From: Leptolyngbyaceae cyanobacterium SM1_4_3
Lineage (GTDB): Bacteria > Cyanobacteriota > Cyanobacteriia > Elainellales > Elainellaceae
Length of the DNA: 35,034 bases
Reading direction: 5' to 3'
Assembly: GCA_012031415.1 (NCBI GenBank)
Contig: JAAUTN010000027.1
Span: 1 to 35,034 of the forward strand
Positions 7,475-15,528 of the stretch are shown piece by piece; positions within the stretch are counted from its first letter, which is position 1; every line of letters begins with the position of its first letter. Position numbers and translations under genes: made by a program. Under the pieces are notes generated by a model, which did not search any database, was not told the origin of the DNA, and was given only the letters and a program-made list of their open reading frames with translations.

Positions 7475-9033
7475 TTATTCATCGTCAGACTTTTCCTGGA
7501 AGCCGCGTACAATCCGCGAAAGCTCATTTTTCTCATCCACTGCGATGCGCGTGGGAGAGCCGCTGATGATTCCCTCAAAGTTGCGGAAGGATTCTCTGAT
7601 TTGTGGACCTTGAGCGCTAATCGTGTATTCCCGAATGCCCTTGTCGTGCCACGAGCCGCGCATCTTAAACACGTTTAGCGCTCGTGCCATTTCGCCGCGA
7701 ATCTCGACATATTGCAGCATTAAGATCGTGTCGGTAATCGTAGAAATATGGGAATCAGTGATGGAGTGCGATCCCATGAACTGATCGGTCGTGTTGGTGA
7801 AGAAGCCTGTGATTTCTTCCTGCTTTGCAAAACCCGTCACACCGATGACAAACTGGCGGAAGGCATTGTTGCTCACGCCTCGTGCCAGGGCAGAAAGCGA
7901 GTCGATCGCGATTCGAGAGGGCTTAAATTCGGCAATTTCAGACTTGATAATTTGCAAATGATCCTCCAAGCCCGCCGACTCTGGATAAGCACAGAGAATT
8001 CTCAGCAAGCCCTTCTGCTCCAGTTCTTCAAAATCAATTCCCCAAGAATAAGCGTTGCGGGAAAGCTGGGCGCGGGATTCTTCATAGGCAAACAGCAGGG
8101 CGCGTTCGCCAATCATGCAGGCATCTTGCAAAAACTTGCTGACCAGCATCGTTTTGCCTGTACCTGTGGCTCCCGTTGCCAGAATGATGGAATCTTTGAA
8201 AAAACCGCCGCCGCACATTTCATCTAGCGTCCTCACACCCGAAGACACGCGGACGTTAGACGATCGCTGAGTCAAGCGCATAGCTCCAAGTGGGAAAATA
8301 TTGATGCCGTCGTTGGTGATGGTAAAGGGATATTCGCCCTTCATGTGGGTTGTGCCGCGCAGCTTGAGAATTTCGATCGTGCGGCGGCGGCGTTCTCCCT
8401 CCAGCACGTTGCGGACGATCGCCACGTTATCCGAGACAAATTCTTCAACGCCAAAGCGAGCAACCGGGCCATATTCCTCAACCCGCTCGGTCGTCATGAT
8501 GGTGGTTGCGTTCATTTGCTTGAGGCGGGCCACCAGTCGAAAGATTTCGCGTCGCACCACGAAGCCGCATCATACTGCTGAAAAACAGCCGTAACAGAGT
8601 CAATGGAAACTCGCTTGGCTTTGTATTTGCGAATCGCGTATTGAATTCGCTCAATTAGCGCAGAAAGATCGAAATTGCCAACTACATCTTGCCCTTCGGG
8701 ATCAGGCGATGCATCAAGAATAAACAGCTTGCCCTGGTCGATTAACTGCTGCAAATTCCAGCCAAAGCTGTAGGCATTTTTGATGATGTCGGCCGGAGAT
8801 TCTTCAAAGGTGACAAACACCCCTGCTTCGTCAAAATGAGTGATGCCGTTGTAGAGAAATTGGACGGCAATCAGCGTTTTTCCAGTTCCAGAAGTGCCGC
8901 TGACGAGGGTGGTTCTGCCAATAGGCAAACCGCCGTGACTGATATCATCAAAGCCTTCAATGAGGGTACGAATCTTCTGGACACTTGCTGTGGTCGATTC
9001 AATGGATTGCCCAGTTTGATTAGCTTTATTCAT
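7475..9033 (-). pseudogene. kaiC: circadian clock protein KaiC, broken by a one-base frameshift as given
   Basis: KaiC is the hexameric ATPase, autokinase and autophosphatase at the core of the cyanobacterial clock. The CI half (9033 to about 8560) has Walker A SGTSGTGKT; the CII half has Walker A ATGATGTGKT, the paired phospho-sites Ser-Thr in DSHISTITDT (Ser431/Thr432 in Synechococcus) and an intact C-terminal tail. At 8560-8561 one C is missing on the plus strand (caccacgaag where caccaccgaag is expected, encoding SVVRRE), which throws CI out of frame. Restoring it gives 519 codons, exactly the usual KaiC length. The ATG at 9033 is preferred over the TTG at 9054. It is the last gene of kaiABC, 86 bp after kaiB, and ends 5 bp from the convergent DUF4335 gene. 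Confidence 0.95.
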
Positions 9034-9119
9034 AAATCTGTCAACAGCTGCCAAAAGAGTTTTAAAGTCAATTCAATGGTGTGAAATGTGAGGTGAAATC
9101 GACAAGTTTTGAGTTGAAC

Positions 9120-9437
9120 TTATTCTTCCTCCCGTTCATCTTCTCGCAATTCGTCGTATAGAAGGTCTAAACCAATTAAAACCTTCTCCCGATCTGATAA
9201 GTCTCCGATGATTTTTCGCACGGGCGGAGGCAGAATTTTGGACAAGGTTGGAGTTGCGAGAATTTTGTCTTCTTCGGCAAGCTGAGGGTTTTTGAGAACG
9301 TCAATTACCTTCAGCGCATAAACACCCTGAAATTCTTTTTCCAAAATGTTATTTAAAGTTTTTAGCGCACGAATCGAGTTAGGGGTGTTTCCCGCGACGT
9401 AAAGCTTCAAGATGTAAGTTTTTTTAAGTGGACTCAT
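9120..9437 (-). CDS. kaiB: circadian clock protein KaiB
   Basis: A 105-aa thioredoxin-like, fold-switching protein. KaiB binds phosphorylated KaiC, sequesters KaiA and displaces SasA to close the clock's negative loop. The start of [16 protein letters not shown], the [21 protein letters not shown] segment around the switching region, the core [19 protein letters not shown] and the acidic tail are all typical. I chose the ATG at 9437 because ggag lies 4 nt upstream and the length fits KaiB (about 102-108 aa). An in-frame extension to 9566 would run into kaiA and has no family match. It lies between kaiA (73 bp) and kaiC (86 bp) on the same strand. Confidence 0.97.
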
Positions 9438-9510
9438 GGATCTCCGGTGAGGAATTCGGGTGATTTTGGCGAGAGAGGGTGAGGGTTGTAAATTGCTAAG
9501 AGCGATCGCT

Positions 9511-10410
9511 CTACGACTCTCTGGGAATGGAGCGACGGTACATTTCACAGAGGTGAGCGATCGCATCGATCAAAGTCAGCCGATAGTCCAGCAAGATATC
9601 ATCACTGCGTCCTTCTAGCTGTAGCTGTTTAGAAAATTCATCCATCAATTCCATATGAATTTCGACAATGGTTGAAACTGAAATATCAGCGAAAAAAGCT
9701 ACATTGACAAAATTATCGATTTTTTCGTTGAGATTGCTGTTTCGAGAAAAATAACTCAAGATAATTTCTCGATAATCTTCCCTAAGCTGCCGAAGTAGCT
9801 CTTTTCGCTCAGACGCGGGCATATGCCGGAGGAAATTTTGGGGATTCCTTTTGTAGTACACACCGAGGTATCCTAATCGTTCCTTCAATTTCTCAGACAG
9901 GCGTTTTTGTTGGGCGACAAGAGACGTTTGGGTTGTCAGGGCAGCTACAGAACCAGGAGTGGACTGATGCTCAGGCAGCGGACAGGAAAGCGAGAGCATC
10001 AGGAATTGGTCGATCGCCCGATCAATAGTTTGGTCAATTTGGTGTAACTGATTAATTGACGTTCTCAGAATAGCCGTGTGATAGGAAACATCGACGTTTT
10101 TCTGCTCAGTTGCTGCTAGTGAAGCCGAAGAGGGGGCTGCGTCTAGGTCTAGAACAATAGTCGGCAAAAAGGTGGCTTGCTCTCTTAAATGCTCAAGCGT
10201 GATTAGAAGCTTTGGATTATCTTGCAAGACTAGACAGTCTAACTGCTTTTCTCGCTCAATGAAGTTGAGAAACTCAGTTTCAACCGAAAATTGAGTCAGG
10301 CTGTACTGTCCACTCAACGCCCCCTCTAAAGAATTCTGAAGAGAATGCTTGAAGGATTGCGCTAGTGCATCAGAGGAAATCAGGCAACAAATAAACAGTT
10401 GAGGACGCAA
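9511..10410 (-). CDS. kaiA: circadian clock protein KaiA, full length
   Basis: A 299-aa KaiA, which binds the KaiC C-terminal tail and promotes CII phosphorylation. Both parts are present: an N-terminal pseudo-receiver (about 1-135, with the [10 protein letters not shown] strand but no usable phospho-Asp site), a linker, and the C-terminal four-helix KaiC-binding domain (about 175-295: [20 protein letters not shown], then [20 protein letters not shown]). Some filamentous strains have a KaiA lacking the N-terminal half; this one is not shortened. The start is the TTG at 10410, because no ATG or GTG lies upstream in frame before a stop and RPQLFICCL lines up with known N-termini. It has no clear Shine-Dalgarno. 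Confidence 0.95.
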
Positions 10411-10654
10411 AGCTATAGCTGGAAAAAGGACAGTAACTGCAACAGGAACTATAAAGCTGAACTGATAGGAAAATAAGACTGAATAGACTTGTCAAGAATC
10501 CTAGCGAAAATTGGGCGATCGCTAAGTAGCATCAAAATACTTAACATTTATTGTAATTGCAAACGTCTTTACTTCTTCGGCTATCCAGCCATAATTGAGC
10601 TAAGACGGCCACTCTGTTGGTCAAGCTCTCACCGAGGTTCGCTTTCTCCTCTTC
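10411..10654. promoter_or_regulatory. divergent promoter region between kaiA and the hybrid kinase
   Basis: This 244-bp gap serves both kaiABC (minus) and the kinase (plus). On the minus strand a consensus -35 hexamer ttgaca lies at 10495-10490, but its -10 partner is weak. A HIP1 octamer sits at 10516-10523. The leader to the kaiA TTG is about 50-60 nt. I see no palindrome long enough to name as an operator. Confidence 0.4.
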
Positions 10655-13600
10655 ATGTATGTTGCTGCTGTTGGCGAATTTATCCAAGCCACGCCCGTCT
10701 GTACTCAAACTGCCAGACTGAAAGCGGTGCTGCGGCTGTTTCGCCAAGCTCGCTGTCAACGAGTCATTGTTGCGGATGGGCAGCATCTCGTGGGAACGTT
10801 GAGCCTTCACCGTCTTACGTCTTTCCTGTTTGAGGCAGAAGTTGAAGCCCCAGACAGTAGAAGTCATGGAAGTGAAGCAGCGATCGCTCCCTGGCAGCAA
10901 ACTCTTCAAGAATTGTTCTTAAGTGCAGAAAATGCAGATTTGCTCGAGCCGCTATACGAACCGCTGGTTGAGCTATCTGCAAATTTGCCAATCAGCCAGC
11001 TTGCACCTTACTTAAAAGATTTAGAACAGCGGCAATATGCTCTGATCGATCAGTCGGGTGACTGTTTGGGGCTGTTAAACCAGACGCAACTGCTCAAGTT
11101 TTTGGCGCTGAACCCAACGCCTGAGTTGCAGGAGCGATCGCCAGGGATAGCAGAGATGCAAAGGCTGGGGCAGTCGGGTGAGAAGACGGTGGCTGATGAC
11201 CATTCAAGGCGATCGCCCTCAGCAGAGCCAGCCTTTACAGAGTCGATTAGCGAAACTATTTCTGCGGACCTGCTGATTGATTTGCTAGAGCGACTGCCCC
11301 TGCCGATGATGCTGCAAACTAGCACTGGGCAAGTTGTTGCTCGTAATTTGTCGTGGCGGGAGCAGTTAGGCGAGTTGCAAGACCCCAGCACGATCGGTCG
11401 AGAGGCTGCTTTACTTTTACAAACTGCCACGTCCGTACTTCGGGGCAGCCAACCTGCTCATTCTCCATTCACTGAATCTTCGTTTGAGCTTTCGTTCGCC
11501 AATGCAGCCCACAAGTCTCATTCGTCGGAACCCTGGAGTGTTGAAAATCAGATTGATGGCGATCGCCTCAGTTTTTGTCAATTAGGAACCGATTTAGATA
11601 CCTGTATCTGTACCTGCCCGATGAAAAACGGACAGGAGCGAATCTGGCAATTCCTCAAAATTCCGCTAGGAAATCGCTCAACTCAGGCACAGTTCAACAT
11701 GGCGGCTCTTCTATCAGCAGTAGAATCTCGCCGCCGTACCTATGCCAGCCAGCCCTATGAAGGATCAAACCTCACTGCTGAGATCCACTCCTCTCAGGCA
11801 AATTCTCAACCGCTATGGCTGGTGATGGCTCAAGACACCACCGAGCAGCATCGGGTGGCCAAAGAGCTAACCGCTAAAAATGCCGATTTGGTTCAGCTTA
11901 ACCGCCTCAAAGATGAGTTTTTAGCCTGCATTAGCCATGAGCTAAAAACGCCGCTGACTGCGGTTTTGGGGCTGTCAACGCTGCTTAAAGACCAGGCATT
12001 GGGGGAGCTAAACAATCGCCAGACTCGCTACGCGCAACTGATTCACCAGAGCGGGCGGCATCTGGTGCTGATTGTAAATGACATTCTGGATTTAACCCGG
12101 ATTGAAACAGGGCAACTAGAGCTAACGTTAGAGCCAGTTCATATCAAAACCGTGTGCGATCGCGCCTATGAACAGGCACGCCGATTGCAGCCGCAAGAAG
12201 AAAGTTCTGGAACTGAGTCCTCTAGCACCTCAGAGTCAGATGTCCGCTTTAGCTTAAATGTGCAGCCCGGTCTAGAAACCCTGATCGCCGATGAGCTACG
12301 GCTACGGCAAATGTTGACCAACTTGCTCTCTAATGCATTTAAGTTTACAGAAGTGGACGGCGAAGTAGGGCTAACCGTCGAAACCTGGGAAGGCTGGATT
12401 GCCTTTACCGTGTGGGATACCGGAATTGGCATTCCAGATGAAAAGCAACACCTGATTTTTCAGAAATTTCAGCAGCTAGAAAATCCGCTGACTCGTCGCT
12501 ACGAAGGAACCGGGCTAGGACTGGTGTTGACCCAACGGCTAGCCCGACTGCACGGCGGCGATGTAACCTTTACCTCGGTTGAAGGAAAGGGTAGCCAATT
12601 TACAATTTTGCTGCCGCCTAGCCCGCCTCAAACTGCAACAGACCCGTCTCAACCATCAATCAAGCCTCTAGCTCAGACCCACAGCAATCGTCTGGTGCTA
12701 GTGGTGGAGGCAGTGCCGCGATTTTTGGAAGATTTGACTGATCAATTGGCAGGGTTAGGCTATCGAGTGGCGATCGCCGCGCTGGCACTGAGGCTCTAGA
12801 AAAAGTGCGGCGGCTCCAGCCTGCAACCATTTTTCTCAATCCCGCTTTGCCCTTGCTCTCCGGTTGGGATGTTTTAACTCTGTTGAAATCGGATGCTGAA
12901 ACCCGCCACATCCCCGTTGTTGTCACAGCCAGCCATCTAGAAAAAACTCAGGCCTATCGCAACGGAGCGAACGGATTCCTTAGCTTGCCGATCCAGCCGA
13001 ACGCTTTGGTGCAAAGCCTGGAACCCCTCATCCACAAATCGTCTGAGTCGCAAAATATAGCCTCTAGTCTGACCATTCTGCACCTTAACGCAGGAGGTCA
13101 GTCGCTTTCTTCTCAGTCAGAGCATTATTCTCAGTCAGAGCATTATTTAGCTGCTCACTTCAATAGCCTGCTCCATCCTCACAACTGCCGAATGCTAGAA
13201 GTTGATGATCTAGATCAAGCCGATCTCCTGGCAAAGGTCTGGAAGCCGAACGTGATCTTGCTGGATGGGGTTATCTCTGACCCCATGACTTACCTGAAGC
13301 AGTTAAGCGACTATCCAGCGCTGGCATCTCTGCCCCTGGTGACGCTCACCGCAGAAATTACGCAAGCTGCAAATCAACTGTCAGAGCTAACGGTTTTTCC
13401 CTGTCTGGCTTCATTGCCCACGCCCGGAGAGGCGATCGCCGATTCAAATTCAGATTCGGCGCTACTCCAGGTGATTCAGGTTGCTGCGGGAATGAGTTGG
13501 GCACCGCACGTCTTAGTCGTGGATGTAGCGGCACTCCAGCAAGACTGGACTACCTTCCCTCAGATGGACTGGGCAGAAGGGACAGCACCAAACCCCAGCG

Positions 13601-13962
13601 CCAAACGTACCGCAGAATGGCTGCAAGCCTCAATGCAATATTTTCAGGCAGCGGGCTTTCGTAGCTCGATTAGTCGCTCCTGGTCTGAGGTGTTAGAGCA
13701 AATCCAACATCAGAGCGTCGATCTGCTGCTGCTCTGTGTGCGTCACGCTGATCCTCATCCCTCGGTGCTGAAGGCGCTGCAAACTCTGGCTCAAGTGGGG
13801 ACAAAGCCGCCCATTCTAGTTTGGAATTGTCAGCCTCAACCGTTAGAAATGGGAGCAACTTTAGGCGAAGTGCTGGAGGCGATCGCCGCTCAAGTCCTGC
13901 CTCCCTCTCTCTCCATGAAAGAACTGCTCGATCAAATTAACCAAACTCTGGTCAGACGATAG
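10655..13962 (+). pseudogene. CBS-PAS-like hybrid histidine kinase with three receiver-like domains, one-base frameshift
   Basis: The first frame (714 aa) has a CBS-like pair (about 1-155), a PAS-like stretch (about 205-400), HisKA with His428 in CISHELKTPL, and an HATPase domain (about 540-655; DTGIGIP, GTGLGL). At about 12776-12780 one base appears missing within a receiver domain: AIA should continue as AGTEALEKVRRLQP, which is read in the second frame to 13962. Restoring it gives 1,102 aa. Receiver 1 has Asn for the phospho-Asp (IFLNPALP) and lacks the acidic pair. Receiver 2 keeps an Asp (VILLDGVI). Receiver 3 has Cys there (LLLLCVRH). It is divergent from kaiA, and a degenerate receiver on a kinase recalls CikA. 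A clock role is inference. No Shine-Dalgarno is seen before the ATG. Confidence 0.88.
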
Positions 13963-13971
13963 GGCTGTCTC

Positions 13972-15528
13972 CTAATTCGTTTTTGCGGTTAATTCTACGC
14001 TTGCTCTGAGTGGTTTATCATCACAAGCTTTAGCTAGCAGCCAGTAGGTCGTCATTTCCCCCTTGCCCTTGACGGCGATCGCCCCTCGTTTTTCAAACCG
14101 ATAACTGTGCTTGATGCGCTGATAAGTCGCTGCCGTCACCTGAATTTTTCCAGCTTCGCCCTGGGTTTCCATGCGGGAAGCGACGTTAACGGTGTCTCCC
14201 CAGAGGTCGTAGCTAAATTTTTTGATGCCAATTACGCCTGCAACAACGGCTCCGGTGTTGATGCCAATTCGCAGTTGAAACGGTTCGCCATTGTCGCGAT
14301 GAAACTGCTGAATGGACTGCTGCATATCCAGAGCGAGGTCAGCGATCGCCTCAGCATGGTCATTTCGGGGAATTGGCAACCCGCCTACCGCCATGTAAGC
14401 ATCCCCAATCGTCTTGATTTTTTCTAAGCCGTGCTGCTCAATCAACTGGTCAAAGGTCGAAAAAATTTGGTTGAGCAAACTCACCAGATCTGTTGGACGA
14501 GTCCGCGCTGCCTGGGAAGTAAAGTCAACAATGTCAGCAAATAAGATGGTGGCTTCACTGAACTGTTCTGCGATCGCCCCATTTTCCTGAGCCGCTGAGT
14601 CCTGATTTTTCTTTAGCTGATCTGCAATGACTTTAGGCAAAATGTTTAACAGCAGAATCTCAGATTTGCGTTGGGCTTCGTAAAGCGCCCGTTCAATTCG
14701 ACGGCGATCGCCAATATCGCGCACAATGAACAGCACTTCATCTTCGCCGCTGACAACAATACGCACTTCTTCCTCGTAGAGCCTGCCATCTACCTCATAC
14801 TGCTGTTCATAAATCTCAATTTCACCCGTTTGCAGCACTAACTCCATGTACTGCTGCTGTCGTAGGGCCATCTCTGCGGGAATCACATCGCTCATTTGTC
14901 GCCCGATTCGCTCTACACCGGGCATCAGCGGTTCATAAAACCCTCTAGACGGGAAATAGTCTAGATAAACTCCGTCGCGGCGAACGCGAAACATTAGGTC
15001 AGGAATTGCTGCCAATACCGCCTGGTTTTGAGCTTCGCTGCGGCGCAGAGCGGCTTCGGCCTGTTGGCGATCGCGAATTTCCTGCTGAAGTCGAGCATTT
15101 TGCTCAGTCAGTTGTCTCTTTTGCCGCTGAATCGTCAACTGATTCTCAACTCGAATCAGCACATCTTCTAACTGAAACGGCTTCGTAATATAGTCTGCTC
15201 CCCCCACCTCAAACGCATAAACCTTGTTTAGCGCCTCCGATGCAGCACTCAGAAAAATCACAGGCAAATCGCGGGTTCGCTCGGCTGCCTTGATCTGAGA
15301 GCAAACTTCATAGCCACTCATTTGAGGCATATTGACATCAAGCAAAACAATGTCAGGCAGAGCCGTCTCAATAAAATCTAGAGCAACTTGCCCGCTTAAC
15401 GCTTCTTTGACCTGATATCCCTGTTTCTCAAGCATCATGGAGAGCAGACGAAGATTGGCCGGATAATCATCCACAACCAAAATGTTTGCCTTGCCTGATT
15501 CCGCTTTGCCTGCGTCTGCCTTGCTCAC
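13972..15528 (-). CDS. receiver-PAS-class III adenylate cyclase
   Basis: A 518-aa signalling enzyme that should make cAMP. Domains: a receiver (about 15-130) with acidic pair Asp20/Asp21 and phospho-acceptor Asp64 in VLLDVNMP; a coiled-coil linker; a PAS domain (about 168-275); and a class III cyclase domain (about 323-500). Catalytic residues are complete: metal-binding Asp332 (FADIVDF) and Asp376 (KTIGDAYM), purine-selecting Lys372 and Asp441 (YDLWGD), and transition-state Asn448 and Arg452. The Lys/Asp pair indicates ATP, not GTP. Activity is likely switched by phosphorylation from an unidentified kinase. It ends 9 bp from the stop of the hybrid kinase, tail-to-tail. Confidence 0.95.
   Translation of the reverse strand: MSKADAGKAESGKANILVVDDYPANLRLLSMMLEKQGYQVKEALSGQVALDFIETALPDIVLLDVNMPQMSGYEVCSQIKAAERTRDLPVIFLSAASEALNKVYAFEVGGADYITKPFQLEDVLIRVENQLTIQRQKRQLTEQNARLQQEIRDRQQAEAALRRSEAQNQAVLAAIPDLMFRVRRDGVYLDYFPSRGFYEPLMPGVERIGRQMSDVIPAEMALRQQQYMELVLQTGEIEIYEQQYEVDGRLYEEEVRIVVSGEDEVLFIVRDIGDRRRIERALYEAQRKSEILLLNILPKVIADQLKKNQDSAAQENGAIAEQFSEATILFADIVDFTSQAARTRPTDLVSLLNQIFSTFDQLIEQHGLEKIKTIGDAYMAVGGLPIPRNDHAEAIADLALDMQQSIQQFHRDNGEPFQLRIGINTGAVVAGVIGIKKFSYDLWGDTVNVASRMETQGEAGKIQVTAATYQRIKHSYRFEKRGAIAVKGKGEMTTYWLLAKACDDKPLRASVELTAKTN

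Follow-up and report, generated by a model that had tools for sequence, protein, structure and literature searches.

Input to and output from the cyanobacterial clock are known chiefly from S. elongatus. The clock protein KaiA has an N-terminal domain that is receiver-like without phosphate chemistry. The S. elongatus kinase CikA (PDB 2J48) joins HisKA and HATPase domains to a receiver fold without phospho-Asp, and SasA is likewise a HisKA/HATPase kinase of organisms with kaiABC. In filamentous species, alternative CikA-like kinases were still being sought by the authors of a recent diel study (PMC12691664).

A histidine kinase gene divergent from kaiA was analysed in Leptolyngbyaceae cyanobacterium SM1_4_3, for which the source assembly (GCA_012031415.1) is a draft of 700 contigs. 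The window is the whole stretch analysed, 35,034 nucleotides of contig JAAUTN010000027.1. The gene represents a kinase family that is conserved, linked to kai and equipped with a pseudo-receiver, an assignment well supported by linkage and architecture. Like CikA, the encoded protein has HisKA/HATPase domains followed by a receiver fold without phospho-Asp and is found in cyanobacteria with kaiABC. Unlike CikA, it has a CBS pair and a PAS-like stretch where CikA has GAF, three receiver modules (R1–R3) instead of one, and its own kinase clade; it adjoins kaiA, and a cikA-type gene lies elsewhere in the genome. It differs from SasA in having no KaiB-like N-terminal domain. The features of the locus are as follows.

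7475..9054, minus strand: kaiC, as two overlapping ORFs (7475–8560 and 8512–9054)
9120..9566, minus strand: kaiB ORF, with the KaiB domain at 9165–9407
9511..10410, minus strand: kaiA, the divergent neighbour (Pfam KaiA 2.4e-64, KaiA_N 2.8e-28)
10411..10654, no strand: intergenic region of 244 bp common to kaiA and the kinase gene
10655..12799, plus strand: ORF 1 of the split kinase gene (714 aa), with the CBS pair, PAS-like stretch, HisKA, HATPase and the start of R1
11576..11617, plus strand: Cys motif C308-x8-C317-x-C319-x-C321 in the PAS-like stretch
12779..12780, plus strand: frame break in R1, one codon short by a base, open in relatives
12805..13962, plus strand: ORF 2 of the split kinase gene (385 aa), with the rest of R1 including IFLNP, R2 and R3
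12829..12843, plus strand: IFLNP motif, its Asn at the receiver phospho-acceptor position

The 244-bp gap between the divergent genes is as the earlier note on this DNA had given it. Conservation of the kaiA neighbourhood, a test set beforehand, was surveyed in an even phylum sample of 292 genomes, 121 of them with kaiA. Orthologs were defined as family matches to ORF 2, and leaving out weak matches confined to a generic receiver gave 80 genomes. The gene is divergent from and upstream of kaiA, on the same contig and within 8 kb, in 71 of the 80, and no other arrangement relative to kaiA on the same contig was found among them. Eight of the nine non-linked orthologs lie on contigs without kaiA, and the ninth is in a genome without a kaiA match. 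At least one of the eight is a contig break (genome G097), because an N-terminal family match sits on the kaiA contig there; several others look truly unlinked. For a genome that has the kinase gene and no kaiA match (L140), other genomes of the same genus carry unlinked copies. The linkage was also seen in a set of 80 best-scoring loci from named genomes, weighted to Nostocales and Leptolyngbyaceae, with kaiA divergent upstream in 77. Within 6-kb flanks of these loci kaiA, kaiB and kaiC were each found in 75–76 of 80; as a control, five of six other window neighbours were found in none and the sixth, a cyclase gene, in six. This cyclase gene (13972–15528) is convergent with the kinase gene, and its product combines PAS_4 and an adenylate/guanylate cyclase domain with a receiver that looks intact.

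As a kaiA neighbour conserved in Nostoc, Leptolyngbya, Fischerella and relatives, the kinase gene is a specific candidate for filamentous species. Its pairing with kaiA is retained over much of the cyanobacteria. The family gene is absent, however, from a genome whose KaiA marks it as S. elongatus-like. It is also missing from about 20 kaiA-bearing genomes that do not belong to the marine picocyanobacteria family; in general, therefore, the clock can do without it. No paper describing the kinase as a clock gene was found; since the search covered open-access papers only, this is weak evidence of novelty.

The earlier note suggested a CikA/SasA-like protein; membership in the CikA or SasA family is not supported. 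In a kinase-core tree the family clade (100/98) and the CikA clade (100/99) are separate, and their order in the wider group is not settled. No GAF domain was detected by Pfam in the window protein or four orthologs. The kinase gene has no KaiB-like domain, and PF07689 matches in the genome are limited to kaiB and contigs C668 and C500. The search for canonical clock kinases that the same note had called for gave a sasA-type gene on C668, and on C481 a kinase with a CikA-type pseudo-receiver (L149, 18500–23500), whose pre-kinase part is in an overlapping frame with no GAF seen. The pseudo-receiver of the CikA query matches PDB 2J48 at 117/117 residues. The kinase is thus neither CikA nor SasA, given its separate clade, the missing GAF and KaiB-like domains and the genome's own sasA and cikA-type genes, though it could work like CikA; the linkage and the receiver folds, the two points on which that broader proposal had been staked, both held. 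The C500 match (L151, 10500–13500) is neither kaiB nor sasA; it encodes a protein of 260 aa whose C-terminal domain is KaiB-like. The best NCBIfam model for the kinase is the hybrid kinase HrmK, far under its cut-off, and none of the models shown is above cut-off.

ORF 2 starts within a receiver domain (Pfam Response_reg, 1e-8). Three alpha/beta modules were predicted in the C-terminus of the Scytolyngbya ortholog (434 aa, pLDDT 85); the best fold matches of the whole were to PleD, and single domains matched DivK and other receivers. The modelled folds, also a test set beforehand, thus agree with the three receiver-like modules read from the window alone. Receiver fold and kinase core are shared with ordinary hybrid histidine kinases that have PleD/DivK-like receivers, from which the family differs in an R1 mostly without the phospho-Asp, second acid and Lys.

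Residues were counted in 109 non-redundant family members. The Asn at the R1 phospho-site, seen in the window as IFLNP, is present in 97/109, and in every one of the 69 named loci that gave a reading of the motif. Leu replaces the catalytic Lys in 94/109. R1 had also been described as having no acidic pair, which is true of one position of the two: E685, the first acid, is kept in 100/109, and Ala or Thr mostly stands in place of the second. R2 has Asp at the phospho-site in 88/109. The Cys noted at this site in R3 of the window is borne out and is the commonest state in the family (60/109, with Tyr in 15/109), and R3 is absent in 22/109. Read against a phosphate-accepting hybrid kinase, R1 departs at the Asp, the acid pair and the Lys (Asn, Glu plus Ala, Leu), and the HisKA/HATPase boxes conform. 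The stretch around the R1 Asn (residues 707–745) is the best-conserved part measured, with a mean pairwise identity of 0.78 versus 0.74 for HisKA and 0.72 for HATPase. Such conservation would fit a docking surface, since it is a strong constraint on a receiver unable to take phosphate on Asp.

That R1 might be a particular relative of the CikA pseudo-receiver was considered and rejected, as R1 aligns equally well with an ordinary receiver (hhalign E about 1e-14 in each comparison). Descent of the modules from the KaiA N-terminal domain was likewise rejected. That domain is similarly receiver-like without phosphate chemistry and belongs to the neighbouring clock protein, but R1 and R2 have no sequence relation to it (hhalign probability 1–3%); R3 is borderline at 50%.

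The HisKA (aa 419–486, 2e-18) and HATPase_c (aa 546–655, 9e-29) domains were matched by Pfam. The catalytic His is kept in 109/109 members, the N-box in 104/109, the G1 Asp in 103/109 and the Gly in 100/109, and the HExxT motif is kept in most. The core, called active-looking in the earlier note, is intact in nearly all of the family.

The sensor half begins with a CBS pair (aa 1–160 of ORF 1). A Pfam CBS match covers aa 15–58 (24.4 bits against a cut-off of 24), and the best PDB matches of the N-terminal model (mean pLDDT 75) are CBS pairs, which agrees with the CBS-like domains first noticed in the sequence. In CBS nucleotide sensors, ribose is bound by the Asp within the [ST]xxD motif. The fold is that of CBS-pair (Bateman) sensors such as AMPK gamma and CBSX2, but this Asp is replaced in both repeats, the sites (53 and 145) holding Arg, Gln or Lys in most members. 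The earlier proposal that the CBS pair senses adenine nucleotides is therefore doubtful and was set aside.

The PAS-like stretch (aa 205–412) was called on PAS-like motifs and strand order; no Pfam PAS match was found at E up to 1 in the window protein or four orthologs. Within it, the Cys residues are kept at C308 in 83/109, C317 in 68/109 and C319 in 76/109 members, and carriers of the motif are mostly longer, Nostocales and Leptolyngbya-type proteins. This motif may sense redox state or a metal, a guess that suggests itself because clock input in cyanobacteria is known to involve the sensing of iron-sulphur and quinones (PMC13421787).

The kinase may have a role in the clock. The reading placed first, at about an even chance, is that of an old histidine kinase family linked to the kai locus, with putative sensing and a putative docking like that of CikA; the split seen here would most likely be a sequencing or assembly error. 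The family architecture runs from a CBS pair and a PAS-like stretch through HisKA/HATPase to the pseudo-receiver R1, a receiver-like R2 and, in many members, R3. The CBS/PAS half may sense a small-molecule or redox state. The core would add phosphate to a response regulator in trans, remove it, or do both, because the catalytic His and HExxT are kept and R1 is unable to take phosphate on Asp. By analogy with the CikA pseudo-receiver, R1 might be a docking module through which the enzyme binds KaiA, KaiB or KaiC of the clock, or else its target. A more specific form is offered tentatively: a further clock-coupled kinase beside SasA and CikA, old and lost in S. elongatus, with redox or metal sensing through its Cys-PAS stretch and Kai docking through its pseudo-receiver.

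The linkage may reflect shared transcription and not direct contact. The kinase could then be co-regulated without being a clock partner, answering a daily signal (redox, energy or nutrient) while the divergent promoter gives it clock-timed expression. This is possible, though not favoured. All linked cases are divergent pairs with no operon with kaiABC, and some genera retain unlinked copies, as co-regulation would allow. However, the distance between the kinase gene and the kaiA match varies widely, from about 100 to 1700 bp, and the gap in the window contains no HLR1-like (RpaB-type) site, the one motif searched. An HLR1-type site in the shared promoter was accordingly dropped as a candidate; matches across the window were at chance level. 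A shared promoter also leaves the pseudo-receiver core as the most conserved part unexplained.

A role as dedicated regulator of kai transcription, in which the kinase or phosphatase works on an unlinked response regulator and through it on the shared promoter, is improbable. The intact catalytic core would suit it, and local regulators are commonly placed divergently, as this gene is. Pfam scans found no DNA-binding domain in the protein, however, and the adjacent cyclase with its receiver was rejected as a conserved neighbour of the kinase (6/80 loci, about 34% identity).

The earlier note had treated 10655–13962 as one gene, but the ORF list of the window fills this plus-strand interval with two ORFs in different frames, and the break inside R1 was missed. 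Three-frame translation of 12600–12960 follows the family sequence in ORF 1 up to ..GYRVAIA and continues in another frame with AGTEALEKVRRLQP, where relatives have the single frame ARSGTEALEKARRLQP. At the break the window reads ..VAIA[two bases]AGTEAL.. and relatives read ..VVIARSGTEAL... The GTG at 12805 corresponds to a codon well within the reading frame of the family and is not a likely start codon. A GCGATCGC site at 12770–12777 adjoins the break. None of the other family members compared is broken at 12779–12780, although they were chosen as long ORFs and broken ones may be under-counted. The kaiC gene of the window is split too, with an apparent one-base loss near 8560–8580, where the expected reading needs one extra base. 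A sequencing or assembly error is the most likely cause of the kinase split, because relatives are open at the break and kaiC is broken in the same window.

A true pseudogene in this strain, through loss of one base, is quite unlikely. The break does stand in the assembled sequence, and degenerate or shortened family members are known elsewhere. Against this, a break of the same type lies about 4.2 kb off in the core clock gene kaiC, and on C481 the cikA-type gene is likewise in overlapping frames, which together point to indel errors. Past the break, 385 codons are also open and family-like. A programmed ribosomal frameshift yielding a short and a long protein is barely credible: both gene halves are open and conserved, but no other member compared has a break at this place and the neighbouring kaiC is broken too.

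In the old kai-linked family, N-box or G1 residues are lost in seven members, including those of two Thermosynechococcus-like genomes, one of which was identified through a KaiA match to PDB 5JWR. These two members (L073, 3175–5304; L074, 3149–5338) have lost the N-box Asn and the G1 Asp and keep a HELKN box, so that the HExxN form of the motif persists. Because of this pattern, a pseudokinase or phosphatase role is possible for them.
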